From a virus, in the IMG/VR virus record IMGVR_UViG_3300020472_001612, positions 1 through 22,761 of that record: a stretch of DNA of 22,761 nucleotides. One strand, given 5' to 3'. Numbering within the stretch: position 1 is the first letter of the stretch; each line of letters starts with the position of its first letter. The position numbers and the translations under genes were made by a program. Under the pieces are notes generated by a model. That model saw only the letters and a program-made list of their open reading frames with translations. It made no database searches and was not told the origin of the DNA. Below are positions 1-22,090 of this stretch, one piece after another.

Positions 1-1
1 G

Positions 2-322: not shown

Positions 323-333
323 AAGTAAAAACC

Positions 334-4381: not shown

Positions 4382-4794
4382 TGGACGAAGAATTTTATGG
4401 ATCTATAAAACTTGTTTCAGGCGAAGAGATCTTCGCTGAGATTCTCCCTGTCGAGGAGAATGGTAGAAATATTTTAGTCTGTAGTGATCCAGTAGAAATA
4501 GAAACAGTCAGTATCAATGGATCTGCAGAAGGCCTAAGAATGATGCCTTGGTTACGTAGTATCCCCAAAGAGGGATTAGTCATCATTCCTTTGGATAAAG
4601 TAATTACAGTAGTTGAAGCAGCCGAAGATTCTGAAGTGGTTACTTACTACACTAAATTTGTTATGGCTAACTTCACTGATGGTTCAGAGAGAATTAAAGT
4701 AACCAAGAAAATGGGTTATTTAAATTCTGTTGAAAAGGCTCGGGAACAACTGGAGAAGCTTTATAAAAATAATACTGATAAAGCTGGATCCTAA
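4381..4794 (+). CDS. Small beta-rich protein, possibly Sm-like (LSm) fold
   Basis: The protein has 137 residues and I recognise no named function. The first 75 residues read as a small five-strand barrel: 'FYGSIKLVSGEEIFAEILPV' resembles the start of an Sm domain (a strand, the 'SGEE' turn, then a strand with 'AEI'), followed by 'DPVEIETV', 'MMPWLRSI' and 'GLVIIPLDKVITVVEA', which resembles the closing Sm2-type strand. The remainder is helical and charged ('SVEKAREQLEKLYKN'). An Sm-like fold would suggest RNA binding, as in Hfq, but the classical Sm2 signature is not clear. It overlaps the carbamoyltransferase stop by one base and is the last gene before the promoter region of gene 55. Similar genes are, to my knowledge, widespread in cyanomyoviruses as hypotheticals. 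Confidence 0.72.
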   Translation: MDEEFYGSIKLVSGEEIFAEILPVEENGRNILVCSDPVEIETVSINGSAEGLRMMPWLRSIPKEGLVIIPLDKVITVVEAAEDSEVVTYYTKFVMANFTDGSERIKVTKKMGYLNSVEKAREQLEKLYKNNTDKAGS

Positions 4795-4803
4795 TATCCC
4801 TTG

Positions 4804-4818
4804 AACTCTGACAGAGTT
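4804..4818 (+). other. Small inverted repeat after the first gene block
   Basis: AACTCT and AGAGTT form a perfect 6-bp stem around GAC, ten bases after the stop of the preceding gene. It is followed by ATTATATAC rather than a run of T, so it could be a weak transcript end or processing site but is not a convincing intrinsic terminator. Confidence 0.35.
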
Positions 4819-4840
4819 ATTATATACAAGATGGGCAACC

Positions 4841-4869
4841 TTGTCAACTGTTGTCAAAATACCTATACT
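4841..4869 (+). promoter_or_regulatory. Sigma70-type promoter P1 for the gene 55 block
   Basis: A -35 hexamer TTGTCA (4841-4846) and a -10 hexamer TATACT (4864-4869) are separated by exactly 17 bases. This is the upstream member of an overlapping pair in the only sizeable gap before gene 55. It suits recognition by the host vegetative sigma factor before the phage late sigma is made. Confidence 0.65.
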
Positions 4870-4879
4870 GTGGTACACT
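4851..4879 (+). promoter_or_regulatory. Sigma70-type promoter P2 for the gene 55 block, shifted 10 bp from P1
   Basis: A second -35 TTGTCA (4851-4856) and -10 TACACT (4874-4879), again 17 bases apart, sit exactly 10 bases (one helical turn) downstream of P1. The TTGTCAA heptamer is directly repeated. The expected transcript starts near 4886, leaving a leader of about 27 bases before ATG 4913. Confidence 0.65.
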
Positions 4880-4912
4880 TATAACAACGTAATATAAAAG
4901 GATAATCATGCC

Positions 4913-5395
4913 ATGCCCGCAGCAAAGACACGTAAGAGATCCGAACACTATGTAAACAATAAGGAATTCTTGTATGCGATCGTTCAATACAAGAAGGATG
5001 TGAAAGATGCTGAAGAAAATGGCGATCCAAAGCCACGTATCAGTAACTATCTTGGGTCTTGTTTTTTAAAGATTGCGACACACTTGTCGTATAAACCAAA
5101 CTTTGTAAACTATATGTTTAGGGAGGATATGATTTGTGATGGGATTGAAAACTGCGTTCAATACATACATAACTTCAATCCAGAGAAATCTACAAATCCT
5201 TTTGCATACTTCACCCAGATTATACACTACGCATTTCTTCGGAGGATCCAGAAAGAGAAGAAACAAATGGAGATCCGTAGTAAAATCATTGAAAAGTCGG
5301 GGTACGATGAAGTATTCACTGTTGACGATGATTACGGCAATACTTCTGACTACAATTCTATAAAAGAGGCAGTCCAGACAAAGATGTATCAGTGA
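4913..5395 (+). CDS. 55: gp55 late-transcription sigma factor
   Basis: gp55 replaces the host sigma on RNA polymerase and recognises the short late promoter (TATAAATA in T4); in T4 its activity is boosted by the gp45 sliding clamp through gp33. This copy has 160 residues against about 185 in T4. A basic start ('KTRKRSEHYVNNKEF') is followed by 'ISNYLGSCFLKIATHLSYKPNF' and a region-2-like sigma core: 'MICDGIENCVQYIHNFNPEKSTNPFAYFTQIIHYAFLRRIQKEKK', holding the DNA-melting and -10 recognition helix. The end is acidic. It is the first gene after the doubled promoter. An out-of-frame ATG at 4908 lies closer to the AAAGG ribosome binding site (4897-4901); ATG 4913 is the one in frame with the sigma-like sequence. 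Confidence 0.9.
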   Translation: MPAAKTRKRSEHYVNNKEFLYAIVQYKKDVKDAEENGDPKPRISNYLGSCFLKIATHLSYKPNFVNYMFREDMICDGIENCVQYIHNFNPEKSTNPFAYFTQIIHYAFLRRIQKEKKQMEIRSKIIEKSGYDEVFTVDDDYGNTSDYNSIKEAVQTKMYQ

Positions 5396-5396
5396 G

Positions 5397-5567
5397 ATGA
5401 GAACTCAAAATAAAGAGAACTATTACTATGTTTTTTGGGTAGTAGCAATGGTAGCCTTTATAGTCCCTCAAGTCTTTACTGCTATTGCATATCATAGACT
5501 TGCTGATCTACTTACTAAACCGATACAAGTTGAGCATGTAAATGAAAATCACACAAAAGATAATTGA
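5397..5567 (+). CDS. Small single-pass membrane protein, 56 residues
   Basis: I do not recognise this protein. It starts one base after the gp55 stop and ends inside the next small gene. A polar N-terminus (MRTQNKENYY) leads into one hydrophobic segment, residues about 11-32 (VFWVVAMVAFIVPQVFTAI), followed by a polar tail ending NHTKDN. It is probably an inner-membrane peptide with the C-terminal part exposed. The tight fit between gp55 and the next ORF and the open frame support it as a real gene, but there is no strong ribosome binding site and no family assignment. Confidence 0.6.
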   Translation: MRTQNKENYYYVFWVVAMVAFIVPQVFTAIAYHRLADLLTKPIQVEHVNENHTKDN

Positions 5568-5709
5568 TGATCTTACTGTGGCATTAGCACACACTAAGAA
5601 GGATGGTACGGAGAATTGGAAAGATGGGGATGATATAGATGTATGTCTTGCGGGTACGTTTGCAGCAGATAAGTTTATTAGTTTGATAAACAGATCAAAA
5701 CCAAAATGA
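5542..5709 (+). CDS. Small protein of 55 residues before gp47
   Basis: I do not recognise this protein. It begins MKITQKIIDDLTVALAHTKK, continues 'DGTENWKDGDDIDVCLAGTFAAD' and ends in a basic tail. It looks like a small soluble alpha-helical protein with an acidic middle. Its start lies inside the preceding micro-gene (26-base overlap) and its stop overlaps the gp47 start as ATGA, so it is framed on both sides by translational coupling. That is the main evidence that it is expressed. Confidence 0.6.
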   Translation: MKITQKIIDDLTVALAHTKKDGTENWKDGDDIDVCLAGTFAADKFISLINRSKPK

Positions 5710-6749
5710 AGATTGCGATTATAACTGATACTCATTTTGGTGGGCGACGAGGTTCAAAAGCCTTCCATGAGTTTTGGCAAAAATTTTATGATGATATATT
5801 TTTTCCCACCCTTGAGGAACGTGGGATAAAGTATTGTATTCATATGGGAGATGCTTTTGACAATCGTAAGAACATAGATTTCTGGTCACTTGACTGGGCA
5901 AAGGAACATGTGTATGATAGGTTTAGAGATCTTGGTGTAACAGTTTGGCAACTTGTAGGAAACCATGATGTTTATTATAAGAATACCAATCAGATTAATT
6001 CTATTGAGTCTCTTTTATCTACTTACGATAATCTTATACCTATACCTTCGCCTGGAGAGTATGATATTAACGGGTTCAAAGCCTTCATGCTCCCTTGGAT
6101 CTGTGATGATAACTTTAGAGAAACTGAATCTGCTATTGCTGCCACGGACTCTGAAGTTGCTTTTGGTCACTTAGAACTGAGAGGGTTTGAGTTATATCCT
6201 GGCTGTGTACAACAGAGAGGTATTGATAGAGGTATAGTAGAGAAGTTTGATACAGTATTCTCAGGACATTATCATACCAGAAGTAATGATGGTAAGGTAT
6301 TTTATTTGGGTAATCCATATGAAATGTACTGGAATGATTGTGGAGATAAGAGAGGATTTCATATCTTTGATACGGATGACCGTACTATAGAATTCATAGA
6401 GAACACAAATCACATGTTCGCTAAGGTGTATTATGAAGATACTCCTCTTGGAACCTTTAAATTCCACCTCTATCAAAATAAAATTGTTAAGTTACTTGTC
6501 AGAAAGAAGTCTAATCAGTTACAATATGAGAAGTTTGTTGATAGAATGATTAAAGCCGGCGTGGCTGATCTTAAAATCATAGAAAATCTGGAGGTAAATG
6601 ATGCGGAGGTGGAATTCGATGATGATAAAGTCGAAGATACACTGACACTATTGAATAAATACATAGAAGATTCCGATTTCGATCTAAAAAAAGAACGAGT
6701 GAAAGAACTTCTTCGAGAAGTATACATGGAAGCTTGCGAAGCGGAGTGA
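5706..6749 (+). CDS. 47: gp47 recombination endonuclease subunit (SbcD/Mre11-like)
   Basis: gp47 is the nuclease subunit of the gp46/gp47 complex, the phage Mre11/Rad50, which resects double-strand ends for recombination-dependent replication and takes part in host DNA breakdown. The protein has 347 residues (T4 about 339). The metallophosphoesterase signature is complete: D8 and H10 in 'ITDTHFGGRRG', GDAFDNR (near 48-54), GNHD (85-88), 'GHLELRGFEL' (near 157) and GHYH (187-190), which together bind two metal ions. A C-terminal region of about 100 residues ('VKELLREVYMEA') should contact the gp46 coiled coil. It is coupled by ATGA to the micro-gene before it; gp46 follows after one small gene. 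Confidence 0.95.
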   Translation: MKIAIITDTHFGGRRGSKAFHEFWQKFYDDIFFPTLEERGIKYCIHMGDAFDNRKNIDFWSLDWAKEHVYDRFRDLGVTVWQLVGNHDVYYKNTNQINSIESLLSTYDNLIPIPSPGEYDINGFKAFMLPWICDDNFRETESAIAATDSEVAFGHLELRGFELYPGCVQQRGIDRGIVEKFDTVFSGHYHTRSNDGKVFYLGNPYEMYWNDCGDKRGFHIFDTDDRTIEFIENTNHMFAKVYYEDTPLGTFKFHLYQNKIVKLLVRKKSNQLQYEKFVDRMIKAGVADLKIIENLEVNDAEVEFDDDKVEDTLTLLNKYIEDSDFDLKKERVKELLREVYMEACEAE

Positions 6750-6752
6750 TCT

Positions 6753-7040
6753 ATGTACATCCTATCTCTAAAAGGCGCCGAGGGCGACGGGGCATATGCC
6801 TGTATGGATGATAGTGGTGAGAAGGCACTTTACCTCTTCCAAAAAGAGGACGACGCACAAAGATATGCAGGACTACTACACGCAGATAACTCCGCTCCGT
6901 TATCTGTAGTTGAGATTGACGATGGACTTGCAGTCCAAACTTGCAAAAAACACAATTACAAATATGTAATCATCACACCAGATGATATACTATTCCCACC
7001 TCAACATTATGATTATATTCAAGACGATTCGGTGGCGTAA
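6753..7040 (+). CDS. DUF3110-type protein between gp47 and gp46
   Basis: The 95-residue protein matches my recollection of the DUF3110 family of cyanobacteria and their phages: an N-terminal strand 'MYILSLKGAEGDGAYACMDD', then 'ALYLFQKEDDAQRYAGLLHA', an 'EDDAxRYAxxL' signature, then 'LSVVEID' and a C-terminal 'YKYVIITPDDILFPP'. The function is unknown. The compact alpha/beta pattern suggests a small soluble regulator or binding protein. It starts three bases after the gp47 stop and overlaps gp46 by 32 bases, so it is translated within the nuclease operon. T4 has no counterpart here that I know of; it may modulate the complex or be unrelated cargo. Confidence 0.75.
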   Translation: MYILSLKGAEGDGAYACMDDSGEKALYLFQKEDDAQRYAGLLHADNSAPLSVVEIDDGLAVQTCKKHNYKYVIITPDDILFPPQHYDYIQDDSVA

Positions 7041-8721
7041 TTTCTTATCTACAGGTAATCAATTTACCGAGATTAATATTACGGAATCGCCTACAAATTT
7101 GATAGTTGGTGCGAATGGTACTGGAAAGTCTACCATGTTGGATGCGCTTACCTTTGTGTTATACAATAAGCCTTTCCGTAAGATTAAGAAAGCACAGTTA
7201 GTTAATACAGTTAACGATAAAGAGTGTGAAGTACATATAGAATTTACTGCATATGGTAGGGATTATCAGGTCGTGCGTGGTATTAAACCCACGTTATTTG
7301 AGATCTATATTGATGGAAAACTTCAAGACCAGTTTGCTTCTGCGATAGATCAACAGAGAAATCTTGAAGAAACTATATTAAAATTAAATTATAAGTCTTT
7401 TACTCAGACGGTTATATTAGGATCGGCAACCTTTGTGCCATTCATGCAACTGTCCAACTCTAATAGGAGAGAGATTGTAGAAGATATGTTGGATATAAAA
7501 ATCTTCTCTGGAATGGCAAGTATTCTTAGGGATAAGATGCGTAGTACTAATGAACTAATAAGGGAACTTACTACTAAAAGGGACATGGTGGAAGAGAAGA
7601 TCACCATGCAGGAAAGCTTTATTGCAGACTTGGATAAGAGAGGGAAGGAAAGAATTAAAAATAAGGAAGAAAGATTGAGTTCATTAGATAAAGATATCAA
7701 TTCCTTATTGGAAGAGAATAAAGATAACCAATCTGATGTTGAATTTCACACAACAGAACTTGAACAATTCTCTAATGCAAGTGGTTCATTAAAAAAGATG
7801 AACAATGTGAAGGCGAAACTTGAACAAAGGATTAAGACTATCAGTAAAGAACATAAATTTTTCAAGGATAATGTATCATGCCCTACATGTGAGCAGTCTA
7901 TTGAGGAAGAGTTCAGGCTAAATAAAATCGGAGAAATCGAGGACAAGGTACAAGAGATTAACTCAGCGTACAGTGAACTCAAAGAATCTATAAACGAAGA
8001 ACAAAAAAGAGATAAAAGGTTTATAGAGGTCTCCAAGCAGATCACCGCATTAACGAATGGAATTTCTACTAACAATTTTAAAATTTCTGAATACCAGAGA
8101 CAAATCCGAGATTTTCAACAGGAAGTTCAAGACATTACCGAACAAATTGCAAACAGAAATACTGAAAGGGCAGCTCTTAAGAAGTTAATAGATGATTTAG
8201 ATACCGCAGAAAAAAATAAGTCCGATCAAACTGAAGAGATAACTTACTTAGAGTTTGCACACTCTATGATGAAGGATGGTGGTGTCAAGTCTAAAATTAT
8301 TCAGAGATATCTTCCTGTAATGAATAAACAGATCAATAAGTATCTGCAATTACAGGACTTTTATGTTAATTTTACTCTTGATGATGAGTTTAATGAGATA
8401 GTTAAGTCCCCTATCCATGAGAGATTCAGTTATGAATCATTCTCTGAGGGTGAAAAGATGAGGATTGACCTTGCAATTCTTTTCATGTGGAGAGATATTG
8501 CTAAGATGAAGAATTCATCTTCTACCAACCTATTGATTCTTGATGAGATATTTGATAGTTCATTGGATGGTAATGGTACAGAGGATTTCACAAAGATTGT
8601 TCGATACGTTATTGAGGATGCTCATGTCTTTATGATCTCTCACAAACAAGAGGAATTGACTGATAGATTGGATAATCTAATAACATTTAAGAAGGTAAAC
8701 GGTTTCAGTAAGGTCGTGTGA
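7009..8721 (+). CDS. 46: gp46 recombination endonuclease subunit (SbcC/Rad50-like)
   Basis: gp46 is the SMC-like ATPase partner of gp47. With this start it has 570 residues (T4 about 560). It shows Walker A GANGTGKST (34-42), 'KPFRKIKKAQLVN' and 'VILGSATFVPFM', which closely follow T4 gp46, a long coiled coil (about 170-420) with a Rad50 zinc hook CPTC (291-294) at its turn, the ABC signature SFSEGEKMRID (near 477), Walker B LLILDEIFD (near 508) and the switch His in 'ISHKQEE'. An ATG at 6982 is in frame further upstream, but the match to T4 gp46 begins at 'MIIFKTIRWRNF', so I chose 7009. It ends the transcript begun at gene 55. Confidence 0.95.
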   Translation: MIIFKTIRWRNFLSTGNQFTEINITESPTNLIVGANGTGKSTMLDALTFVLYNKPFRKIKKAQLVNTVNDKECEVHIEFTAYGRDYQVVRGIKPTLFEIYIDGKLQDQFASAIDQQRNLEETILKLNYKSFTQTVILGSATFVPFMQLSNSNRREIVEDMLDIKIFSGMASILRDKMRSTNELIRELTTKRDMVEEKITMQESFIADLDKRGKERIKNKEERLSSLDKDINSLLEENKDNQSDVEFHTTELEQFSNASGSLKKMNNVKAKLEQRIKTISKEHKFFKDNVSCPTCEQSIEEEFRLNKIGEIEDKVQEINSAYSELKESINEEQKRDKRFIEVSKQITALTNGISTNNFKISEYQRQIRDFQQEVQDITEQIANRNTERAALKKLIDDLDTAEKNKSDQTEEITYLEFAHSMMKDGGVKSKIIQRYLPVMNKQINKYLQLQDFYVNFTLDDEFNEIVKSPIHERFSYESFSEGEKMRIDLAILFMWRDIAKMKNSSSTNLLILDEIFDSSLDGNGTEDFTKIVRYVIEDAHVFMISHKQEELTDRLDNLITFKKVNGFSKVV

Positions 8722-8722
8722 C

Positions 8723-8731
8723 GGTTAAATA
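8723..8731 (+). promoter_or_regulatory. Late-promoter-like element GGTTAAATA
   Basis: The nonamer GGTTAAATA lies just after the gp46 stop. It resembles the T4 late consensus TATAAATA, which gp55 recognises. The same nonamer occurs at 22118-22126 in the other regulatory gap. Flanking GTGTG and CACAC give it an imperfect dyad. Confidence 0.4.
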
Positions 8732-8746
8732 ACTGCACACTAATGG

Positions 8747-8774
8747 TTGAATTGGTCCTAATCTGATGTATTAT
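8747..8774 (+). promoter_or_regulatory. Possible sigma70-type promoter for the VWA gene
   Basis: TTGAAT (8747-8752) and TATTAT (8769-8774) are 16 bases apart. If used, transcription would begin near 8781, after the first in-frame ATG (8766), and this would make ATG 8799 the start of the next gene. Confidence 0.35.
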
Positions 8775-8798
8775 AGGAACATACAGAAGAAACAACCA

Positions 8799-10997
8799 AT
8801 GATTAATGCGGTCAATTATGAGGTCAAGGGTCAACTTGCTAAGTTGCTTGCCACAGAGGATCTTATAATAGAGAACCGTAAGGTCTCCACAGCGTCCTTT
8901 GATGTGAAGAGGAGAGTTCTTACCCTACCTATGTGGGATCGTGCTTCTGGGATCGTATATGACCTTCTGGTTGGACATGAAGTAGGTCATGCATTATATA
9001 CTCCAGAAGATGATTGGAAAGTAGAATATCCAGATGTACCTAAATCCTTTGTTAATATTTTAGAGGATGTTAGAATTGAAAGGTTGATGAAACGTAAGTA
9101 TCCTGGCCTGATCAAGACCTTCTACGGTGGATACTCTCAGTTATCTGATCAAGATTTCTTTGGAATTGCAGATGAGGATCTTGATGAGTTCATTCTTGCA
9201 GATAGAATTAATTTATATTTTAAGATTGGTAATTTTGTTGATATCCCATTCTCCGAGAAGGAAATAGGGTTTCGTGATAAGGCTTTCAAGACTGAGACAT
9301 TTGAAGATGTTCTTCTTTTGGCTAAGGATCTTTCTGATTATGTAAATTCAGAAGAAAAGACTCATACACCAGTCCAGATCAATGGTGATGAAGAATCTGA
9401 TACACCACCACCTGTTCCTTTTGATAGTTCTGAGGATATTGAGGAGGATTATGGTGCATTAGAAGATGAATCTGAAGGTCGTGGAGATAAGAAACCCCAA
9501 GAAGAGGAAACAGAAGAAGTACAGGATCAATTTGAACAGGGTGGAGACCATAATGATACTCTTACTGATAAGAGTTTGGAGGAGAATCTAAAAGAACTTA
9601 GTACTCCTGCAAAGTATGATGGTGATGAACCTGCTTATGTTGAGATTCCAAAATTAAATATGGATACTGTCGTTGGTAAGAATTCAGATATACATGAGTA
9701 TCTTGATAGTTGGTATGTTGAAGTTGAGAAGAGATACACGGAAGCGATTGAAGAAAAAGGTTATACTACTTGGACTAAAGATCCATTTGAAAATGTTGAT
9801 AGTGAGTATCAGAAGTTTAGGAAGTCAGCACAGAAAGAAGTTAATTACTTGGTTAAGGAATTTGAATGTAGAAAGGCAGCTGATAGTTATGCTCGTGCTT
9901 CTACTTCCAAGACAGGTATATTAGACACTACAAAACTTTATACTTACAAGTATAATGATGATATATTCAAAAAGGTAACAACACTTGCTGATGGTAAGAA
10001 TCATGGATTAATTTTTATCCTTGATTGGTCTGGATCAATGTCACCATATCTTTTGGATACAGTTAAACAACTCTTTAATCTTTTATGGTTCTGCAAGAAA
10101 GCTCAGATTCCTTTTGAGGTTTATGCTTTCAGTAACGAATGGTATAGATCTCATTATGATGCTGAAGTGGAAAAATATATTGTTCCTCCACAACATCATG
10201 AGAGAAAAGAAAATACTTTAATGGTTGATGAGGAGTTTTCTCTACTCAATATGTTTAGTAGTACCACTAAAGGATCTGAATTTGAGAAACAGATGAAGCA
10301 TTTCTTCCGTCTGACTTACTCTATGGATAGTAATACAAGGTTCAATTCTTATTATCAGTATCCACAAAGATTATCTCTTTCTGGTACTCCATTAAATGAG
10401 GCTTTGGTTACTTTAAATCAAATCATTCCAGAGTTTAGTAAGAGAACTGGTGTTCAAAAGGTTCAATGTATCACTCTTACAGATGGTGAAGCTCATGAAC
10501 TTAAGTATAACGTAATGGTTGCACCAAGATATGAGGATGGTGAACCAAGATTGGGATGTAGATCTGCCATTAATGGTAAGTGTTTCATTCGTGATAGGGT
10601 TTCTGGTGGTACTTATTTTGTAGAACCAAACTATCACAGTATGACAAGTACTTTGATCAATCAATTACGAGGTAGATTTCCTTATGTTAACTTTATTGGT
10701 ATCAGAGTAATGGCTCAGAGAGATGCTAACAATTTTGTTCGCAGGTATTGTAACTGGAACATTGAAAAGGTTGCAGATATTATGCAATCTTGGAGAAAGG
10801 ATAAGTCTCTTGTCCTAAAAGATGTTGGGTATCATGCTTACTTTGGACTATCATCTAATGCTCTTAACAATGAGAGTGAATTTGAAGTTGAGGATGGGGC
10901 AACAAAAGCAAGAATCAAATCTGCTTTTAAGAAATCCTTATCTGCTAAGAAGATGAACAAGAAAGTGCTCGGAGAGTTTATGTCCTTAATAGCATAG
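8799..10997 (+). CDS. HExxH-motif and VWA-domain protein (CobT-like partner of an AAA+ ATPase)
   Basis: The protein has 732 residues from this start (743 from ATG 8766). The N-terminal part carries VGHEVGHALYTP, with a zinc-metalloprotease HExxH at 60-64, followed by 'NILEDVRIERL' (86-95), whose E89 or E94 could supply a third ligand. A very acidic, Pro-rich linker (about 185-265) follows. The C-terminal half holds a von Willebrand factor A domain with MIDAS motif DWSGSMS (409-415) and a second metal-site loop 'LTDGEAHE' (near 562). VWA proteins of this layout work with MoxR/CobS-type AAA+ ATPases, and such an ATPase gene comes next. Cyanophage copies are often linked to cobaltochelatase CobT; the HExxH region argues for a protease or remodelling role instead. 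Function unproven. Confidence 0.82.
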   Translation: MINAVNYEVKGQLAKLLATEDLIIENRKVSTASFDVKRRVLTLPMWDRASGIVYDLLVGHEVGHALYTPEDDWKVEYPDVPKSFVNILEDVRIERLMKRKYPGLIKTFYGGYSQLSDQDFFGIADEDLDEFILADRINLYFKIGNFVDIPFSEKEIGFRDKAFKTETFEDVLLLAKDLSDYVNSEEKTHTPVQINGDEESDTPPPVPFDSSEDIEEDYGALEDESEGRGDKKPQEEETEEVQDQFEQGGDHNDTLTDKSLEENLKELSTPAKYDGDEPAYVEIPKLNMDTVVGKNSDIHEYLDSWYVEVEKRYTEAIEEKGYTTWTKDPFENVDSEYQKFRKSAQKEVNYLVKEFECRKAADSYARASTSKTGILDTTKLYTYKYNDDIFKKVTTLADGKNHGLIFILDWSGSMSPYLLDTVKQLFNLLWFCKKAQIPFEVYAFSNEWYRSHYDAEVEKYIVPPQHHERKENTLMVDEEFSLLNMFSSTTKGSEFEKQMKHFFRLTYSMDSNTRFNSYYQYPQRLSLSGTPLNEALVTLNQIIPEFSKRTGVQKVQCITLTDGEAHELKYNVMVAPRYEDGEPRLGCRSAINGKCFIRDRVSGGTYFVEPNYHSMTSTLINQLRGRFPYVNFIGIRVMAQRDANNFVRRYCNWNIEKVADIMQSWRKDKSLVLKDVGYHAYFGLSSNALNNESEFEVEDGATKARIKSAFKKSLSAKKMNKKVLGEFMSLIA

Positions 10998-11016
10998 ACA
11001 CTTTAAGAAGTGGTAC

Positions 11017-11042
11017 AATGCCTTGGCATTATGCCATTTTTT
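11017..11042 (+). terminator. Hairpin with T run after the VWA gene (weak terminator)
   Basis: AATGC and GCATT (11017-11030) form a 5-bp stem around CTTG. An alternative stem GGCA-TTA-TGCC overlaps it. Six T residues follow at 11037-11042. The stem is short, so termination is probably partial. The -35 box of the next promoter lies within the hairpin. Confidence 0.4.
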
Positions 11043-11052
11043 CCTTTATAAT
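11023..11052 (+). promoter_or_regulatory. Sigma70-type promoter for the AAA+ ATPase operon
   Basis: TTGGCA (11023-11028) and a perfect TATAAT (11047-11052) are 18 bases apart. The expected start is near 11059, giving a leader of about 17 bases to ATG 11076. This is the only convincing promoter before the long run of genes ending at 22066. Confidence 0.7.
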
Positions 11053-11075
11053 GTATACATACAAACGAATTGACC

Positions 11076-12209
11076 ATGCCTGTTAAACAAGTGAATTCAA
11101 GACTTGAATCCCTTAAAGACTTCGTTGGTGGTAACACTATTACACCAACAGATATAAGAAACTATTTAAAATCCCAAGGTAAGAATCCTGCCACTACGAT
11201 GGCTAATTGGGAGAAAACTAATCTTGGATATAAGAAAAGTGATCTACCATATTGGAATGGTAAGACAGGTGTTGATAGAAGGTATGATCTCAGTAGCATT
11301 GCAGAGAGGTTGGAGAAGACTTACGAGGCTGCATCTGCTGAACCAGTAGTAGAACAACAAACTAATCTTGTTCCTGTAAAGGATCAGGGATTTGTTCCTT
11401 TTGGAAGTTTCAGTGACATTAAGAAGATCCTTAAGTCTAAGATTTTTTATCCTGCATTTATTACAGGACTCTCTGGTAATGGTAAAACTTTCAGTGTGGA
11501 ACAGGCATGTGCCCAACTAAATAGAGAGTTAATTAGAGTTAATATTACAATTGAAACAGACGAAGATGACCTTATTGGTGGCTTTCGCCTTGTCGATGGT
11601 AGCACTGTATGGCATAATGGACCAGTTATCGAAGCATTGGAAAGGGGAGCTGTCCTCCTTTTAGATGAAGTTGATCTTGCTTCTAACAAAATTCTTTGTT
11701 TGCAGTCTATCCTTGAAGGTAAGGGAGTATTTCTTAAGAAGATTGGTAAGTTTGTAGAACCTGCCAAAGGATTTAATGTGATCGCTACTGCTAATACTAA
11801 GGGTAAGGGATCTGAGGATGGTAGATTCATAGGAACCAATGTTCTGAATGAAGCATTTCTTGAGAGATTCCCTGTAACTTTTGAACAAACTTATCCATCT
11901 GTCATTACAGAGAATAAGATTCTTAGTCAGTTATGTGATGATAAAGAGTATACAAAACGTCTTGTGGACTGGGCTGACATCATCCGTAAAACATTCTATG
12001 ATGGTGGAGTAGAGGAAGTTATTAGTACTCGTAGATTAGTACACATTGTTAAGGCATATAAGATTTGGAATAACAAGGCTAAGTCAATTGAAGTCTGTGT
12101 TAATCGTTTCGATGATGAAACTAAACAGGCTTTCCTTGATCTTTATGACAAGGTTGACGCTGATGTAAACTTTAATGATGCAGAGGACAAGGCTTATGAA
12201 GAAGATTGA
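11076..12209 (+). CDS. cobS: MoxR/CobS-like AAA+ ATPase
   Basis: The protein has 377 residues. The first 70 form a small helical domain ('TPTDIRNYLKSQGKNPATT') as in CobS-type proteins. The AAA+ core follows: Walker A GLSGNGKT (131-138), Walker B VLLLDEVD (193-200), the sensor-1 'IATANTKGKG' (N240), 'FLERFPVTF' with a candidate arginine finger R264, then a helical lid. In cyanophages this gene is usually named cobS, after the ATPase subunit of aerobic cobaltochelatase. No CobN-like large subunit is present in this window; the VWA protein just upstream is the obvious partner, so a MoxR-VWA style remodelling machine fits as well. A TTG six bases upstream is in frame, but ATG 11076 is the normal choice. 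Confidence 0.88.
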   Translation: MPVKQVNSRLESLKDFVGGNTITPTDIRNYLKSQGKNPATTMANWEKTNLGYKKSDLPYWNGKTGVDRRYDLSSIAERLEKTYEAASAEPVVEQQTNLVPVKDQGFVPFGSFSDIKKILKSKIFYPAFITGLSGNGKTFSVEQACAQLNRELIRVNITIETDEDDLIGGFRLVDGSTVWHNGPVIEALERGAVLLLDEVDLASNKILCLQSILEGKGVFLKKIGKFVEPAKGFNVIATANTKGKGSEDGRFIGTNVLNEAFLERFPVTFEQTYPSVITENKILSQLCDDKEYTKRLVDWADIIRKTFYDGGVEEVISTRRLVHIVKAYKIWNNKAKSIEVCVNRFDDETKQAFLDLYDKVDADVNFNDAEDKAYEED

Positions 12210-12378
12210 TCCTAAAGAGTACATGCAGGATGGTTGGGATAGTTCCCCACATCTTGCTGTTCATCCATACAAACGTGGTTCACTCCATAATAAGGTGGGT
12301 ATGTGGATTATGTGGACCTACTATGTTCTCTTCACTGGTATGGTTATTAGATTAATTTGGGTACTTAATACACGATGA
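12196..12378 (+). CDS. Small membrane protein, 60 residues
   Basis: I do not recognise this protein. The start ATG overlaps the end of the ATPase gene by 14 bases and is preceded by AGGACAAGG, a good ribosome binding site. The N-terminal half is polar (MKKIDPKEYMQDGWDSSPHL) and the C-terminal half is one transmembrane helix, about residues 35-57 (VGMWIMWTYYVLFTGMVIRL), ending in RLIWVLNTR. It would be a tail-anchored inner-membrane peptide with the N-terminus in the cytoplasm. The stop overlaps the pebS start as ATGA, so it is translated with pebS. Confidence 0.65.
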   Translation: MKKIDPKEYMQDGWDSSPHLAVHPYKRGSLHNKVGMWIMWTYYVLFTGMVIRLIWVLNTR

Positions 12379-12998
12379 AAAATCTATGGGATAGGTACAA
12401 AGCTGCAGTCACAGATGTCTTTCCTGATATGTACCGCACTAATAGGTGGGCATATTGGAAGTCTAAAGGTACAGATTTGGTTGCAGAGACTTTTGGACAT
12501 AAGTATTTTCTTAAGTCTCGGGCGGTTGATATCACCAGTGAGAAGTCAAACATCTATAACAATATAATCTATCCAAAAACAGGGGAAAATCTTCCTTGTT
12601 TTGGTATGGATCTAATGGGTTTCTTTGATAAGAAAGTTATTGTTGTATTTGACTTCCAACATCCAACAGAAAATCTTCTATTTGGTGTTGAAGGTTTACC
12701 AAAAGGTAAAGGTGACTACAGGTTTTTTGAACCTGGCAATCATTTCTCAGAGAATATTTACATTGCGTATTGTACTGCTGATGAGGTGGATGATCACTTA
12801 CCAATGTTTAAGAAATACTTGACTGCCTATGCAGATATGGTATACTGTAAGCAACCAAGTGGTATGGATACATCGGTGTATCATGACTTCGATGCTTACA
12901 TGACCAAGTTGGATCCAGTTGGAGGATATCTTTCTGGAAAGTTTGGAAAAGATAAAGCGGAAAGATTGGTAAAAGAATTTTTATTTGACTATGGTTAA
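12375..12998 (+). CDS. pebS: Ferredoxin-dependent bilin reductase, PebS-like (phycoerythrobilin synthase)
   Basis: PebS, first described from Prochlorococcus phage P-SSM2, reduces biliverdin IXalpha by four electrons from ferredoxin to phycoerythrobilin; host cells need two enzymes (PebA and PebB). This 207-residue protein shows the family core 'LPCFGMDLMGFFDKKVIVV', then 'FDFQHP', 'GNHFSENIYI' and 'YMTKLDPVGGY'. Compared from memory with P-SSM2 PebS (233 residues), D79 and D180 align with the catalytic Asp105 and Asp206 at the same offset of 26, so the core has no net gain or loss and only the N-terminal tail is shorter. Phage PcyX is an alternative but seems less similar. It is coupled by ATGA to the membrane peptide before it and overlaps the next gene by 8 bases. 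Confidence 0.9.
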   Translation: MKNLWDRYKAAVTDVFPDMYRTNRWAYWKSKGTDLVAETFGHKYFLKSRAVDITSEKSNIYNNIIYPKTGENLPCFGMDLMGFFDKKVIVVFDFQHPTENLLFGVEGLPKGKGDYRFFEPGNHFSENIYIAYCTADEVDDHLPMFKKYLTAYADMVYCKQPSGMDTSVYHDFDAYMTKLDPVGGYLSGKFGKDKAERLVKEFLFDYG

Positions 12999-14055
12999 CG
13001 CTTGGAGTCTATTAGATTCAATATTAAATGGAACACTTGATGAGGATTGTCCGATTATGACAGAAAAGAATGTTGGAGTTAGAACGGATCAAGAATTTTG
13101 GGAGGAAGATGGACATAGTGTAGTGGGTAATCCATACCCTGCTGCTGCATCTTCAGATACTATTCACATTGATACTGGTAGTACTGTTGCTGCACAAGCA
13201 GTAGATTACAATTACTATGGTCAAGACCATATATCATTTGGATCTACTGCATCTGCAAAGGATATTTTTCTATCATCTACAGATCCATACCCGACTTTAA
13301 ATGCTTTTTCATCTGCTGAAGAAGGTCATGAGTGGGTTAAAAATAATGGAGGATATGAATATACTCCACCAGGCCCGTATGAAACTGGTAGACCTAATCT
13401 GGGTTTAGATACTTCTAATTATGAACCAGCTCCTTTTCCTGATGATCCCTTATCGGATAATGATGATCAAATTGCACATCACATTCCTACTACTCCAGAA
13501 GTATTTGGTAACCAGTACACTACTGAACAGTTGGAGAATGATAGGAAGTATCAGGAGGCAATGATGCCTGGTATTGATGAAGAACATCGTAAGTGGATCT
13601 ATGAATCTCCTGATGGTGGAAAGACTGTCTATAGGAGAACACATGGACAAGATCCTATGACAAGGGAATTGGTTCCACAGAAAGATACTCAGGCAGGTGT
13701 CAGAGCTCATTCATTGGCTGATGCTGATATGAGAGATCATCTTGGTACTGAATATAAAACACACTTCTTTAAATATAATGAAGACAAGACTTTGAGAGAA
13801 GTTAAGGATTATGTATCAAGTACATACAAGTCTCATTATGCTAATGATGGTCAGACACAAACCCTTGACCTCATTGATTCTATAGGCGATGCTGAAGCCT
13901 TCAGTAAAGCAAACGCCATTAAATATCTTTCTCGATTTGGTAAGAAAGATGGAAAGTCAAAGTTTGACATCCTGAAGGCAATCCACTATTGTATACTCTT
14001 ATACCACTTCGCTGGTTTACATAATGAAAACGAAACTCCCTATGAAACTTTCTGA
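12991..14055 (+). CDS. Protein with C-terminal DUF3310-like domain
   Basis: The protein has 354 residues from ATG 12991; an in-frame TTG six bases earlier is less likely. The first 220 residues are low in order: Ser/Ala/Pro/Asp-rich stretches ('NPYPAAASSDTIHIDTGS', 'PPGPYETGRP', 'PFPDDPLSDNDD') and repeated Tyr. The last 60 residues resemble DUF3310, a small phage domain of unknown function: 'LDLIDSIGDAEAFSKANAIK', 'YLSRFGKKDGKSKFDILKAI' and 'HYCILLYHF', matching the pattern 'xNAIKYLxRxGKKxGxxDxxKAxxY'. In most phages the domain makes up nearly the whole protein, so the long N-terminal extension is notable. The gene overlaps gene 45, suggesting co-translation with the clamp. No function can be assigned. 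Confidence 0.75.
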   Translation: MVNAWSLLDSILNGTLDEDCPIMTEKNVGVRTDQEFWEEDGHSVVGNPYPAAASSDTIHIDTGSTVAAQAVDYNYYGQDHISFGSTASAKDIFLSSTDPYPTLNAFSSAEEGHEWVKNNGGYEYTPPGPYETGRPNLGLDTSNYEPAPFPDDPLSDNDDQIAHHIPTTPEVFGNQYTTEQLENDRKYQEAMMPGIDEEHRKWIYESPDGGKTVYRRTHGQDPMTRELVPQKDTQAGVRAHSLADADMRDHLGTEYKTHFFKYNEDKTLREVKDYVSSTYKSHYANDGQTQTLDLIDSIGDAEAFSKANAIKYLSRFGKKDGKSKFDILKAIHYCILLYHFAGLHNENETPYETF

Positions 14056-14710
14056 TAGAACTGTTAATTTACTTCGTAATTTTTCTACGATTAATCAGTC
14101 TATTCTGTTTAAACAGGGGAATAGATTACGAACGATCTCTGTCATGAAGAACATTCTTGCAGAGGCAAATATAGATGAAGATATACCACAGGAGTTTGGA
14201 GTTTATGATCTTGGACAGTTTCTTAATTCTTTAAGTCTGTTTCAGGAACCTGAACTAAACTTTACTGGTGAGAGTTTTGTTACTGTGAAGGAAGGAAAGC
14301 AGAGGTCTAAGTATTTCTTTGCTGATCCAAGTGTTATTGTTTCTCCTCCAGAGAAGTCTATTACTCTTCCTTCAGTTGATGTTGAGTTTACTTTAAAGAG
14401 TGCTCAGTTAGATCGGTTGCTTAAGGCTGCTGCAGTATATCATCTTACCGACCTCTCTATTGTTGGAAATGGTAAAGAGATTAAGTTAAAGGTTCATGAT
14501 CGTAAGAATGAAACATCAAATGATTTCTCAATCATAGTTGGTGTTACTGATAAGAACTTTGAATTGCATTTTAAGGTCGAGAACATTAAGATTGTTCCTG
14601 GCACTTATGAGGTTAAGGTATCACGTAAATTATTATCAGAGTTTAAGTCATCTGAATATGATTTAACATACTACATAGCTCTTGAACCCGATCTTACGTG
14701 GGAAGATTAG
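14042..14710 (+). CDS. 45: gp45 DNA polymerase sliding clamp
   Basis: gp45 forms a trimeric ring that tethers the phage polymerase to DNA and, in T4, also activates gp55-dependent late transcription. With the ATG at 14042 it has 222 residues (T4 about 228) and begins MKLSDRTVNLLRNFSTINQS, closely following the T4 start. Other T4-like segments are 'IYDLGQFLNSLSLF'-type (here 'VYDLGQFLNSLSLF'), 'FADPSVIVSPPEKSI', which matches 'ADPSTVVAPNKPI' of T4, 'LKSAQLDRLLKAAAV' and the closing 'YYIALEPDLTWED'. An in-frame ATG at 14024 would add six residues absent from T4. The start lies within the DUF3310 gene and the clamp-loader genes lie downstream. Confidence 0.93.
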   Translation: MKLSDRTVNLLRNFSTINQSILFKQGNRLRTISVMKNILAEANIDEDIPQEFGVYDLGQFLNSLSLFQEPELNFTGESFVTVKEGKQRSKYFFADPSVIVSPPEKSITLPSVDVEFTLKSAQLDRLLKAAAVYHLTDLSIVGNGKEIKLKVHDRKNETSNDFSIIVGVTDKNFELHFKVENIKIVPGTYEVKVSRKLLSEFKSSEYDLTYYIALEPDLTWED

Positions 14711-14711
14711 T

Positions 14712-14978
14712 ATGGATGAACATAAGGATAAGAGTAGAGAACAACTCATAGTTGAGTTTGCAGATTATGCTGTAAATAAAATGGATGAGGAAACTCTTAA
14801 AAGGATTGCTGCCATTACTCTTATGGCAAATGTAAACCCTGAAAGTGATTGGGCTACATGGCATGATTACCTTACCAGAGCTCCTTCTCTACAAAGTGCA
14901 GAAGAACTTCTTGGGATGATTCAACCAAGTGTTATTATGAAACAACAAGTAGATGAGTCTAAATCATCCGAATCTTAA
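14712..14978 (+). CDS. Small helical protein, 88 residues, between gp45 and an oxygenase
   Basis: I do not recognise this protein. It starts one base after the gp45 stop (TAGTATG) and overlaps the next gene by 26 bases. The sequence is charged and helical: MDEHKDKSREQLIVEFADYA, 'MDEETLKRIAAITLMANVNP', 'WATWHDYLTRAPSLQSAEELL', ending in a polar Ser/Lys/Glu tail. It sits where a second clamp-loader gene might be expected, but it does not resemble gp62, for which there is a better candidate at 20581-20967. The longer reading from an upstream ATG at 14682 would run into gp45 and is less likely. Confidence 0.65.
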   Translation: MDEHKDKSREQLIVEFADYAVNKMDEETLKRIAAITLMANVNPESDWATWHDYLTRAPSLQSAEELLGMIQPSVIMKQQVDESKSSES

Positions 14979-15534
14979 GGATCATATTTTTAAATATGAT
15001 TTATTGCCCGAGTGGAAATGTGATGCAGCAAAGCATCAAGTCATAGAGAAGGATGATTGGAGGACTCATTTATGGTATAGTAATACTAATAAAAGGGTTG
15101 ACGTTGATGAACAGTCTGAGTTACAATGGACGTTAGATGAGGTCGCTCAGAGTTGGATTCAACCACACATGGAAGATCTCTTTGGTGCTTTTCATGAAGA
15201 GTATCATGATCCAGAGAATACTAACAGTGAGACTTTTTGGGAGAACAATTCTCAGATAAAGTTTAACAAGTATTCTGTTGGAGATTATCTTAGTCCACAT
15301 CATGATCACATTCGTGATCTTTTTCAAGGAGACTTTAGAGGAATTCCTGTTACCAGTGTAGTTGGAGTTCTTAACGATGATTTTGAAGGAGGTGAGTTTG
15401 TTTTCTGGAGAGAACACACAGTTAAGATAGAGAAGGGACAGGTTTTAGCTTTTCCTTCCTCGTATCTTTTTCCTCATGAAGTCACGCCAGTGACAAGTGG
15501 GGTTCGTTATTCATGGATTACTTGGATTGTATAA
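14953..15534 (+). CDS. 2OG-Fe(II) oxygenase, prolyl-4-hydroxylase-like
   Basis: The protein has 193 residues and a clear 2-oxoglutarate/Fe(II)-dependent dioxygenase core: 'FNKYSVGDYLSPHHDHI' with iron ligands H116 and D118 (HxD), 'TSVVGVLNDDFEGGEFVFW', 'GQVLAFPSSYLFPHEVTPV' with the distal ligand H175, and R185 in 'SGVRYSWITW' as the 2-oxoglutarate-binding Arg. This is the prolyl-hydroxylase/AlkB-like layout common in cyanophages, where the substrates are mostly unknown (protein side chains or nucleic acid are possible). It overlaps the small gene upstream by 26 bases and gene 44 by one base, so it is translated between clamp and clamp loader. 'FPHEVTPVTSGVRYSW' fixes the family with high confidence. 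Confidence 0.88.
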   Translation: MSLNHPNLKDHIFKYDLLPEWKCDAAKHQVIEKDDWRTHLWYSNTNKRVDVDEQSELQWTLDEVAQSWIQPHMEDLFGAFHEEYHDPENTNSETFWENNSQIKFNKYSVGDYLSPHHDHIRDLFQGDFRGIPVTSVVGVLNDDFEGGEFVFWREHTVKIEKGQVLAFPSSYLFPHEVTPVTSGVRYSWITWIV

Positions 15535-16478
15535 TGAGAGATGAATTTCTTTGGGTTGAAAAATATAGACCCAAGACAATTGAAGACTGTATCCTCCCAG
15601 AGGATATTAAGAAAACCTTTACGGATTTCATAGAAACTGGAGAGATTCCTAATCTACTTCTTGCAGGACCTGCTGGATGTGGTAAGACAACTATTGCAAG
15701 AGCCTTGTGTGAACAACTGGGTTCTGACTACATAATTATTAATGGATCGGATGAAGGAAGGTTCCTTGATACCGTAAGGAATCAGGCAAAGAACTTTGCT
15801 TCTACTGTATCATTACATCAAACATCCACTCATAAAGTTATTATTATTGATGAGGCTGACAACACGACGCACGACGTACAACTCCTTCTTAGAGCGAACA
15901 TTGAATCGTTTTACAACAATTGTAGATTCATCTTTACTTGCAATTACAAAAATAAACTTATCGAACCACTCCACTCCAGATGTGCGGTGGTCGAGTTCGG
16001 ACTTACAGCCAAACAGAGACCCGCCCTCGCTGCGTCGTTCTTTAAAAGACTCAGCACTATCCTTGACGGTGAGAGGATTGAAGCGGATAAGAAGGTCATT
16101 GCCGAATTAATTAACAAACATTTCCCTGATTATCGTAGGGTACTTAATGAGTGTCAAAGACATTCTGTTGGTGGATCTATAGATTCATCTATTCTTGCTA
16201 CGTTCTCTGATGTAAATATCCATGATCTCATTAAAAACCTCAAAGAAAAGAACTTTAAGGAAGTACGTAAATGGTGTGTCAATAATTTGGACAATGATCC
16301 TGCTGTACTTTTGCGTCGTACTTACGATGCTCTTTGTGAAACCTTGGACGGTCCTTCTATTGCTGCTGCTGTCCTCATTATTGCTAAGTATCAGTATCAG
16401 ATTGCCTTTGTGGCGGATCAGGAGATCAATCTCCTTGCTGCTCTCACGGAAATCATGGTCGAGTGTGAATTCAAATGA
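15534..16478 (+). CDS. 44: gp44 clamp loader large subunit
   Basis: gp44 is the AAA+ ATPase subunit of the gp44/gp62 clamp loader (four gp44 to one gp62 in T4), which opens gp45 and places it on DNA. From ATG 15534 it has 314 residues (T4 319). The start 'FLWVEKYRPKTIEDCILP' is typical of clamp loaders (WxxKYRP). Walker A GPAGCGKT lies at 45-52, Walker B IIIDEADN at 103-110, sensor-1 'IFTCN' at 133-137, and the arginine-finger SRC motif at 148-150. The helical collar domain follows. The start overlaps the oxygenase stop by one base; a longer in-frame reading from 15513 would lie inside the oxygenase. The stop overlaps the next small gene as ATGA. Confidence 0.95.
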   Translation: MRDEFLWVEKYRPKTIEDCILPEDIKKTFTDFIETGEIPNLLLAGPAGCGKTTIARALCEQLGSDYIIINGSDEGRFLDTVRNQAKNFASTVSLHQTSTHKVIIIDEADNTTHDVQLLLRANIESFYNNCRFIFTCNYKNKLIEPLHSRCAVVEFGLTAKQRPALAASFFKRLSTILDGERIEADKKVIAELINKHFPDYRRVLNECQRHSVGGSIDSSILATFSDVNIHDLIKNLKEKNFKEVRKWCVNNLDNDPAVLLRRTYDALCETLDGPSIAAAVLIIAKYQYQIAFVADQEINLLAALTEIMVECEFK

Positions 16479-16606
16479 TGATTGAGAAGTATATTATACT
16501 CTCATTATTGTATCTTGAATGGTTCACACAGAAACTTCTGTGCTTACCTTACAAACTCTATATGAAATTTGACTACTGGAACTTTAATCGTAAATTACCA
16601 AAATGA
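16475..16606 (+). CDS. Micro-ORF of 43 residues after gp44
   Basis: This short open frame starts as ATGATG over the gp44 stop (ATGA) and ends over the next start, also ATGA. The peptide MMIEKYIILSLLYLEWFTQK continues 'LLCLPYKLYMKFDYWNFNRK'. The first half is hydrophobic and aromatic, the second basic and aromatic, so it may bind membrane. I do not recognise it. The stop-start overlaps on both sides are the main support; without them it would be easy to dismiss as a 130-base spacer. Confidence 0.5.
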   Translation: MMIEKYIILSLLYLEWFTQKLLCLPYKLYMKFDYWNFNRKLPK

Positions 16607-16788
16607 TATTGCCAGGAACTACAGTCACAGTTATCGATGAGACCTCTATCTACAGAGGTTATGTCGGATTTGTACAGAGGATCAGTGGTGATAAAGCTGC
16701 TGTTCTATTTGATAATCTTTCTCCGTGGGAAAAGATGATTACTTTTCCTATTAAAGATCTGGAGGAAGGAGGAATACTACCAAAATGA
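16603..16788 (+). CDS. NdhS-like SH3-fold protein (DUF3252-type), 61 residues
   Basis: The sequence MILPGTTVTVIDETSIYRGY then 'VGFVQRISGDKAAVLFDNLS', 'PWEKMITFPIKDLEE' resembles cyanobacterial and chloroplast NdhS, the small SH3-like subunit that docks ferredoxin onto photosynthetic NDH-1. The shared pattern, recalled from the family, is 'PGxxVxV ... YRxxGxVQRI ... KAAVLFxxxxWxKxxTFxxxxLE'. The phage protein is the bare domain, with no extra tail. If it enters host NDH-1 it could change cyclic electron flow around photosystem I, which supplies ATP during infection; this is inference. A general SH3-like (KOW-like) protein is the alternative. ATGA overlaps join it to both neighbours, including pyrE. 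Confidence 0.7.
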   Translation: MILPGTTVTVIDETSIYRGYVGFVQRISGDKAAVLFDNLSPWEKMITFPIKDLEEGGILPK

Positions 16789-17294
16789 AGGAACAATTAA
16801 TAAAAATCCTAAAGAAATATGCTTATCGTAAAGGTAAGTTTACATTATCTTCTGGTGTGGAGAGTGAACATTATGTAAATTGTAAACCAGTTATCCTTAC
16901 AGGAGGAGGTTTAAGTTTAGTCACTCAAATGATGTTAGATCATCTTGATAGTAAGGTAGTCGCAGGACTTACTTTAGGTGCAGATCCTTTAGTTAGTGCT
17001 GTGACTTTATTGTCACAGGGGTCTGGTTTGATTATTAGAAAAGAACCTAAAGGACATGGTACTGCTTCTCAGGTAGAAGGACCATTGCCACCAAAGGGTT
17101 CCACCATTACTGTATTGGAAGATGTTACTACATCAGGTGGATCATCCCTTAAAGCAGTTGATGTTTTAAGGGATTTAGACTATAATGTTAATCGTGTAGT
17201 AACTATTGTTGATCGTCAAGAAGGGGCTGTTGATCTTATGAAATCAAAAGAGATCGAACTTGTCAGCCTTGTTCTATTAGAGGACTTATTATGA
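16785..17294 (+). CDS. pyrE: Orotate phosphoribosyltransferase PyrE
   Basis: PyrE joins orotate to PRPP to give orotidine monophosphate in pyrimidine synthesis. The 169-residue protein has all family marks: 'KGKFTLSSGVESEHYVNCKP' (17-35), where host enzymes read 'SGxxSxxYxxxK', 'GLTLGADPLVSA' (61-72), 'IIRKEPKGHGT' with the mobile catalytic loop (83-93), and the PRPP-binding motif VLEDVTTSGGSS (110-121). Bacterial PyrE proteins are usually 180-215 residues, so this one is slightly short but lacks no visible active-site part. It is coupled by ATGA to the NdhS-like gene before and the membrane protein after. With PurM and PurN it points to nucleotide supply during infection. Confidence 0.93.
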   Translation: MKEQLIKILKKYAYRKGKFTLSSGVESEHYVNCKPVILTGGGLSLVTQMMLDHLDSKVVAGLTLGADPLVSAVTLLSQGSGLIIRKEPKGHGTASQVEGPLPPKGSTITVLEDVTTSGGSSLKAVDVLRDLDYNVNRVVTIVDRQEGAVDLMKSKEIELVSLVLLEDLL

Positions 17295-17557
17295 AAAGTA
17301 AAAAAGAAAAATTGAGGGCTCAAGTTAAGTCCAGATTTTATTATATCTTTTGGGGAACATGTACCGTGGCAGTTGTAGCTGGTCAGTTCCTTGTAGGAAG
17401 TGGTTTCCGTAGGATGGCTGAGAGTCTTGACAATGTATTGGAGTCTCCTATCATTATTGATATGGGTATTCCTCGTCCACATCTTATGCCAGTACCAGAT
17501 GTATGGGAAGAAGAAGGTATGTGGCATCCCACTGATCCACCTAAACGAGTTTGGTAA
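17291..17557 (+). CDS. Small membrane protein, 88 residues
   Basis: I do not recognise this protein. A basic N-terminus (MKSKKEKLRAQVKSR) precedes one transmembrane segment at about residues 17-37 (YYIFWGTCTVAVVAGQFLVG), followed by a Pro-rich, Trp-containing tail ('PHLMPVPDVWEEEGMWHP'). The positive-inside rule suggests the N-terminus is cytoplasmic and the C-terminal tail periplasmic or lumenal. It overlaps pyrE as ATGA and the next gene by one base. Similar small single-pass proteins occur in related phages without known function, as far as I recall. Confidence 0.7.
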   Translation: MKSKKEKLRAQVKSRFYYIFWGTCTVAVVAGQFLVGSGFRRMAESLDNVLESPIIIDMGIPRPHLMPVPDVWEEEGMWHPTDPPKRVW

Positions 17558-22066: not shown

Positions 22067-22090
22067 GAACCGAACTGATATAATCGGTTT
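22067..22090 (+). promoter_or_regulatory. Extended -10 promoter inside an inverted repeat, upstream of hsp20
   Basis: TGATATAAT (22076-22084) matches an extended -10 (TGnTATAAT). It lies in the loop of an inverted repeat AACCGA (22068-22073) and TCGGTT (22084-22089), which overlaps the last base of the -10. The repeat begins one base after the oxygenase stop. No good -35 is present at the usual distance, as is allowed for extended -10 promoters. Expected start near 22091. Confidence 0.45.

Follow-up and report, generated by a model that had tools for sequence, protein, structure and literature searches.

How can the transcript of one gene end and that of the next begin within 78 bases? This is the distance that separates the stop of a peptidase/midasin-like gene (10997) from the start of a CobS-like AAA+ ATPase gene (11076..12209) in the window, the whole stretch of DNA analysed here, which is an entire IMG/VR virus record of 22,761 bases. 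Judged by its genes, the window looks like a contig of a T4-like cyanophage. The best DNA matches to the stretch from the peptidase to the AAA+ gene are Synechococcus phages, S-SSM7 first, where the two genes are annotated 'peptidase' and 'cobS'; these homologue annotations and the open reading frames define both genes here, and all features of the window described below lie on the plus strand. The original prediction had placed before the AAA+ gene a -35 box within a hairpin, a T run as the spacer and a -10 box, and regarded this combination as a possibly general, compact punctuation module. Its observation is confirmed, its interpretation partly supported.

The named elements are all present in the intergenic region: TTGGCA (11023-11028), a T6 run (11037-11042) and the -10 box TATAAT (11047-11052), with a spacer of 18 between the two hexamers. 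The hairpin exists as well, but is larger than the AATGC/GCATT stem first noticed. In the predicted fold it spans, with its U run, positions 11005-11042 and pairs as AAGAAGTGGTA-C-AATGC, loop CTTG, GCATT-A-TGCCATTTTTT (-16.0 kcal/mol for the whole folded stretch 11000-11075), so that TTGGCA occupies the loop and part of the 3' arm. It begins 8 nt downstream of the end of the peptidase stop codon and has a terminator score of 25, the highest among the 25 terminator-like hairpins listed for both strands of the window. The peptidase gene is followed by a stable hairpin with a U run immediately behind it, as in an intrinsic (Rho-independent) terminator, and 11005-11042 appears to be a putative terminator of this type, the T6 run being its U tract and at the same time part of the promoter spacer. 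The -10 box, recognised by sequence, family profile and position weight matrix (PWM), reads TATAATG and does not match the T4 late promoter TATAAATA. Transcription is predicted to start at 11059, 12 nt after the -10 start, with an A followed by T (column profile of the relatives and base read). Upstream of these elements lies a dyad, GACACTT-N3-GAAGTGGTACA (10997-11017; PWM score 11.3 with the -10 at family spacing, in agreement with the family profile). It overlaps the peptidase stop codon by the codon's last base, its right half is overlapped by the 5' arm of the terminator, and GAAGTG, at 11007, begins 40 nt upstream of TATAAT. The end signal of the peptidase gene seems to be built into the promoter of the CobS-like gene.

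Conservation of these parts was followed in 80 relatives of the AAA+ protein among the matches listed. A -10 box of 5/6 or better, for which the loci were picked, was obtained at 77 of the 80 cobS loci (74 distinct, three repeats), the other three being too short; the contigs are interrelated, exact repeats were removed, and the counts are given without tree correction. Hairpin and T run are kept in 49 of the 74 distinct listed loci, with 39 different 5' arms, so that pairing is kept while the letters change; in one relative (L002) a G-to-C strand swap has occurred in the hairpin. The remaining 25 of 74 fall below the threshold set for this combination. TATAAT is exact in 40 of the 49 hairpin-bearing listed loci, but a -35 box at 16-18 bp is not conserved among them, as the distribution of best matches (1/6 in 9, 2/6 in 17, 3/6 in 17 and 4/6 in 6 loci) equals the local-shuffle null (8.1, 21.9, 14.8 and 3.5, respectively, with 0.4 at 5/6). 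TTGGCA, which the original prediction took for a promoter element, was therefore dropped as the key element of this site. In S-SSM7, the loop of the cobS hairpin coincides exactly with a TTGATT at spacing 16, and the hairpin has no T run.

Aligned on the -10 box, the cobS loci are strongly conserved at -51 to -31, the position of the dyad, whereas columns -21 to -17, which fall in the -35 slot, rank with the most variable ones. The conserved dyad consensus is GMCASTT-N3-AAACTGKCACA. Its right half, called at 6/8 or better to AAACTGKC, starts 39-41 nt before the -10 box in 58 of the 74 listed loci (exactly 40 nt in 36) and elsewhere within 30-50 nt in seven; at this threshold it is missing in nine of the 74. 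Dyad and -10 hold the same spacing even in cobS loci without the hairpin, and the base at +12 from the -10 start is A or G in all 74 listed distinct loci. Judged from these alignments, the conserved promoter element at the cobS site seems to be the dyad, not TTGGCA.

A dyad PWM trained on the cobS loci (score of 9 or more, with a -10 of 5/6 or better at cobS spacing) was applied to the window and to a genome set of seven cyanophages (Syn9, S-PM2, P-SSM4, S-SSM7, Syn33, S-SM2 and S-SKS1) plus T4, RB49 and HTVC008M. RB49 was covered for 160,000 of 164,018 bases; P-SSM2, P-HM1 and KVP40 were pattern-searched and left out of the statistics. Hits, among which may be the genome's own cobS site and in which neighbouring offsets of one site are counted separately, exceed the shuffled expectation in S-SSM7 (25 vs 1.6), S-PM2 (16 vs 1.0), S-SKS1 (16 vs 1.4) and P-SSM4 (12 vs 1.6), and modestly in Syn33 (5 vs 1.6). 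Syn9 and S-SM2 are near background (2 vs 1.2 each); the counts are 2 vs 1.8 in HTVC008M, 2 vs 1.4 in T4 and 0 vs 1.0 in RB49. Other dyad to -10 distances average 0.3-2.9 hits per bin over all scanned genomes and 2.2-2.6 in S-SSM7, S-PM2, S-SKS1 and P-SSM4. For the seven cyanophages and the window, the hits reduce to 64 unique sites, i.e. 17 in S-SSM7, 14 in S-PM2, 13 in S-SKS1, 10 in P-SSM4, four in Syn33 and two each in Syn9, S-SM2 and the window; some of the 64 are probably due to chance. Thirteen of the 17 S-SSM7 sites cluster between 38.5 and 52.5 kb, where most genes are small and hypothetical and where, presumably, early genes would be expected.

The two hits in the window (0.4 in shuffles) are the cobS promoter (distance 40) and a promoter of the peptidase gene itself (distance 39). 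The latter has a dyad of the cobS class at 8719-8740 (PWM score 12.8 at family spacing), with TAACTG at 8730, 39 nt before a -10 box TATTAT (8769-8774). Since this -10 box lies after the start of the longest reading frame (8766..10997), the true start of the peptidase gene is probably the later ATG at 8799.

The fixed spacing recurs in IMG/VR. There, AAACTGGCACA followed by TATAAT within 26-56 nt yielded 130 distinct pairs among the matches listed, of which 104 have a distance of 39-41 nt, 63 of these exactly 40; a control with the reversed motif gave 67 pairs, only two of which are at 39-41 nt. In 103 of the 104 listed pairs at 39-41 nt a purine stands 12 nt after the -10 start, and in 95 of the 104 the following base is T. 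Counted without a -10 box, the strict dyad pattern is close to shuffles in several genomes, and a looser dyad pattern with the -10 box produces a weak peak only. For the half-site AACTGKCAC, counts are about two to four times the expectation in six of the seven cyanophages, the exception being S-SM2. Dyad promoters are not devoid of -35 signals: TTG occurs at spacing 16 in 12 of the 19 dyad promoters of S-SSM7 and the window (null 0.56), and in the other six cyanophages a -35 of 4/6 or better is found at spacing 16 in 6/45 and at spacing 17 in 5/45 (null 1.7 and 1.8). Given this TTG and the mild -35 excess, there is no strict divide between the dyad and -35 promoter types.

Hairpins are in excess in the gap between dyad and -10 box. 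Gap hairpins with a score of at least 16 occur in 22 of the 64 dyad sites of the genomes and the window (4.0 in shuffles) and in 40 of the 104 listed IMG/VR pairs (9.0 in shuffles). A T run accompanies the gap hairpin in 15/31 cases in the genomes (score of at least 13) and in 20/40 among the listed IMG/VR pairs. As about half of the gap hairpins are without a T run, and 25 of the 74 listed cobS loci fall short of the hairpin and T-run threshold, the hairpin may not always terminate; gap hairpins lacking a T run may be weak terminators or have another role. Judged by comparison with relatives, the nested arrangement is a real, recurring design.

The original prediction counted three promoter regions of the window that are combined with inverted repeats, of which two share a common design. 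The case 3' of hsp20 is genuine: a terminator-type hairpin followed by a T run (22633-22654) carries the -35 TTGACG (22641-22646) at its loop, and the -10 box CATAAT follows at 22664-22669. No dyad was seen in this stretch (22633-22669). The inverted repeat AACCGA/TCGGTT around TGATATAAT upstream of hsp20 (22068-22089) is present in sequence and fold, but it lacks a T run and encloses its TATAAT, a different design, and was dropped as the third example. A manA RNA (RF01745, Rfam E 1.1e-15), cut by the window end, occupies 22675-22761; it starts at the predicted transcript start of the hsp20 module (22676). manA is likewise found 3' of hsp20 in L863, L864, L867 and L918, i.e. in four of the five hsp20 loci searched. 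Several different genes follow the hsp20 fused module.

The hsp20 sample comprises 80 loci among the matches listed, which after removal of 21 repeats leave 59 distinct 3' regions. A strong terminator is present in 33 of these 59 listed regions and is combined with a -10 box in 28 of the 33, with 27 distinct hairpins. A -35 of 4/6 or better occurs in 25 of these 27 listed hairpins (null 3.3) and of 5/6 or better in 19 (null 0.5); TTGA or TTTAC is placed at the loop in 18. A conserved -35 at 16-18 bp is thus present 3' of hsp20 and absent at cobS. The loop -35 class was also sought in IMG/VR with the query TTGACA-N6-TTTTT-N6-TATAAT (17-bp spacer), where a qualifying hairpin scores at least 17, has the -35 within it and extends as far as the T run. 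Such hairpins surround the -35 in 50 of the 113 distinct T-run sites among the matches listed, against a mean of 2.4 per 113 (maximum 6 in 50 rounds) when the upstream 20 nt are shuffled and 3/126 among the matches listed for the A-run control (AAAAA). Of the 50 hairpin-bearing listed phage sites, 40 have four or more of the six -35 bases in the loop. In bacterial contigs, 9 of the 116 T-run promoters among the matches listed possess a hairpin (0.74 in shuffles), none of the nine with as many as four -35 bases in the loop, and a bacterial-wide design was dropped. In the recount of loop bases the rules for ends differed a little, with 117 bacterial sites rather than 116 and 125 A-run sites rather than 126. 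Proteins matching cyanomyoviruses (the seven genomes) are found on 43/50 contigs with a hairpin, 32/61 without and 42/116 A-run contigs, all among the matches listed; the loop -35 design is concentrated in cyanophages and not confined to them. The 52 reading frames downstream of the module at the listed sites fall into 26 protein clusters, which suggests that the design arose or moved several times. In the loci L183, L187, L192, L206, L210, L221, L226, L239 and L246, among the matches listed, a recurring fused module precedes a conserved GACTGGCTAGGCAGACGG-like leader, possibly an undescribed phage RNA; it has no Rfam match above the gathering score in L183, L210, L226 and L239.

The hsp20 3' regions and the IMG/VR T-run sites bear out a compact terminator-promoter module, but its generality is unsupported. 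Strong promoters, defined by TATAAT plus a -35 of 5/6 or better, number three in the window, one of them with hairpin and T run in the spacer. Where the terminator stem ends 3-14 nt before the -10 box, the two are regarded as fused. Among 439 strong promoters of the seven cyanophages, terminators lie at 3-14 nt in 8, at 15-26 nt in none and at 27-50 nt in 3, while T4, RB49 and HTVC008M (201 strong promoters) have none at 3-14 nt and 8 at 27-50 nt. Phage contigs of the control scan have none at 3-14 nt among 192 strong promoters; A-run contigs have four (629 promoters), a density no different from that farther away. Starting from the terminators instead, TATAAT occurs 3-15 nt after strong terminators one to three times per genome in Syn9, S-PM2, P-SSM4 and S-SSM7 (26-42 strong terminators each) and not at all in T4 and HTVC008M; hairpin, T run and TATAAT as a rule for all terminators was consequently dropped. 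When a looser -10 and no -35 are required, counts rise above shuffles in all these phages (cyanophages 9-28 vs 1.5-3.6, T4 15 vs 2.8, HTVC008M 11 vs 1.8, RB49 18 vs 2.2), probably because real terminators outnumber shuffled ones. With a -35 of 4/6 required (0.1-0.7 in shuffles), counts are 1 in Syn9, 3 in S-PM2, 3 in P-SSM4, 1 in S-SSM7, 2 in Syn33, 3 in S-SM2 and 8 in S-SKS1, compared with 0 in T4, 0 in HTVC008M and 2 in RB49. The fused design is concentrated in cyanophages and not general.

How the cobS site itself is to be read depends on the part assigned to the dyad. An ordinary sigma-70 promoter, with TTGGCA as a -35 set into the terminator hairpin, the T run as spacer and no dyad-binding factor, suits the window well, since TTGGCA-18-TATAAT scores 11 of 12. 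The geometry of a -35 in a hairpin is clearly real at the IMG/VR T-run sites and at hsp20, and the S-SSM7 cobS loop and some -35 excess at dyad promoters point in the same direction. Such a promoter is nevertheless unlikely, because the -35 match of the 49 hairpin-bearing listed cobS loci is that of the local shuffle, and columns of the -35 slot are among the most variable, whereas the dyad distance is kept within about one nucleotide. Dyad and hairpin are both inverted repeats, and their overlap in the window would also suit an RNA feature, such as a double hairpin or a site where the upstream mRNA is processed at its 3' end, next to a coincidental -10 box. This is very improbable, as the spacing between dyad and -10 is unchanged in loci that lost the hairpin, and the nearly invariant +12 purine of the listed IMG/VR pairs speaks against coincidence. 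A chance encounter of a terminator with a -10-like string in AT-rich intergenic DNA can practically be dismissed: the -10 is a short motif, and over window positions 1-20000 the promoter scan stays near shuffles (87 found, mean 77.2), but none of 300 dinucleotide shuffles gives the combination, and the arrangement is conserved in relatives.

We consider it probable that the cobS site is a terminator nested in a promoter of the dyad class, and that hsp20-type sites achieve the packing by means of a loop -35. Some 60 bases would then suffice to end one transcript and start the next: RNA polymerase arriving from the peptidase gene would form the 11005-11042 hairpin with its U run and halt, and a separate polymerase would start the CobS-like gene at TATAAT (11047), the first transcribed base lying near 11059. 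The class to which the cobS promoter belongs is shared by several marine T4-like cyanophages and is characterised by a dyad right half that begins about 40 nt before the -10; the dyad is probably the site of a dimeric regulator. With the dyad in place a good -35 would not be required, and the gap between dyad and -10 would be free to hold a terminator. Where no dyad was seen, as after hsp20, the -35 would form the hairpin loop, and the descending arm together with the T run would make up the spacer of 16-18 bp. What the sequences show directly is the set of parts, the constancy of their spacing and their enrichment relative to controls; that the hairpin terminates, the promoter fires and a protein binds the dyad, we infer. 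In its most specific form, a dyad of about 20 bp with a putative dimeric regulator would fix polymerase at a -10 box about 40 nt downstream without a -35, the gap would nest the previous terminator, and promoters devoid of a dyad would use TTGACA as the terminator loop; this version is tentative, its chances lying a little below even.

Three known systems come close. PeSL cassettes (early promoter plus stem-loop) of the T4-type phages RB49 and phi1 were reportedly described by Arbiol et al. in 2010. They are intergenic units with a strong host-type promoter and a stem-loop terminator, and a promoter and a stem-loop do share one intergenic unit at the cobS site. The geometry differs: of the 93 strong promoters of RB49, 14 have a terminator that ends within the 50 nt preceding the -35, and none is overlapped by one (2 vs 0.5 in shuffles with a looser promoter definition), whereas in the window the hairpin is nested between the dyad or -35 and the -10. 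Doron et al. are said to have reported in 2016 a novel regulatory element of early genes in cyanophage Syn9. That element is reported to be, like the dyad, an upstream element of T4-like cyanophage promoters, and the two may be the same thing, in keeping with the clustering of 13 of the 17 S-SSM7 dyad sites among small hypothetical genes; Syn9 is weak in the dyad PWM scan (2 vs 1.2 in shuffles), with a raised half-site count (18 vs 5.2).

In the portion of the Kayvirus study available, the early promoter p98 lies immediately after terminator t97, both mapped (PMC7698491). The pairing of a terminator with the promoter right behind it is shared; p98 and t97 are described as adjacent, and the predicted hairpin in the window is nested in the promoter. 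Marine T4-like cyanophages lack motA/asiA according to the parts available of PMC5780444 and PMC2984593, and the latter, a 2010 review, calls it an open question how they switch on non-late genes without MotA/AsiA. Neither a fused terminator-promoter nor this dyad turned up in the titles and abstract beginnings covered by a limited literature search, and the available portions of PMC7698491, PMC2988021, PMC5780444, PMC7238727, PMC3037559, PMC8707807, PMC2984593 and PMC5082946 describe neither design. With its constant distance to the -10 box, the dyad offers a testable handle on the activation of non-late genes in the absence of MotA/AsiA. Promoter and terminator fit each other in size: where a terminator is nested in a promoter or fused with one, a stretch of about 40 bases can keep two genes apart. 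Both designs would be of use for the annotation of phage transcripts, since a promoter inside a terminator is easily overlooked.

Two further arrangements of repeats and promoters were observed in the genome set. In S-PM2, near 108084 and 136648 of the joined sequence, the T runs of terminators lead straight into a late-promoter-like TATAAATA, suggesting that late promoters can merge with terminators too. In RB49, 11 of the 93 strong promoters possess an inverted repeat of at least 5 bp that fills the spacer between -35 and -10, e.g. GGGGATCGGTGATCCCC.
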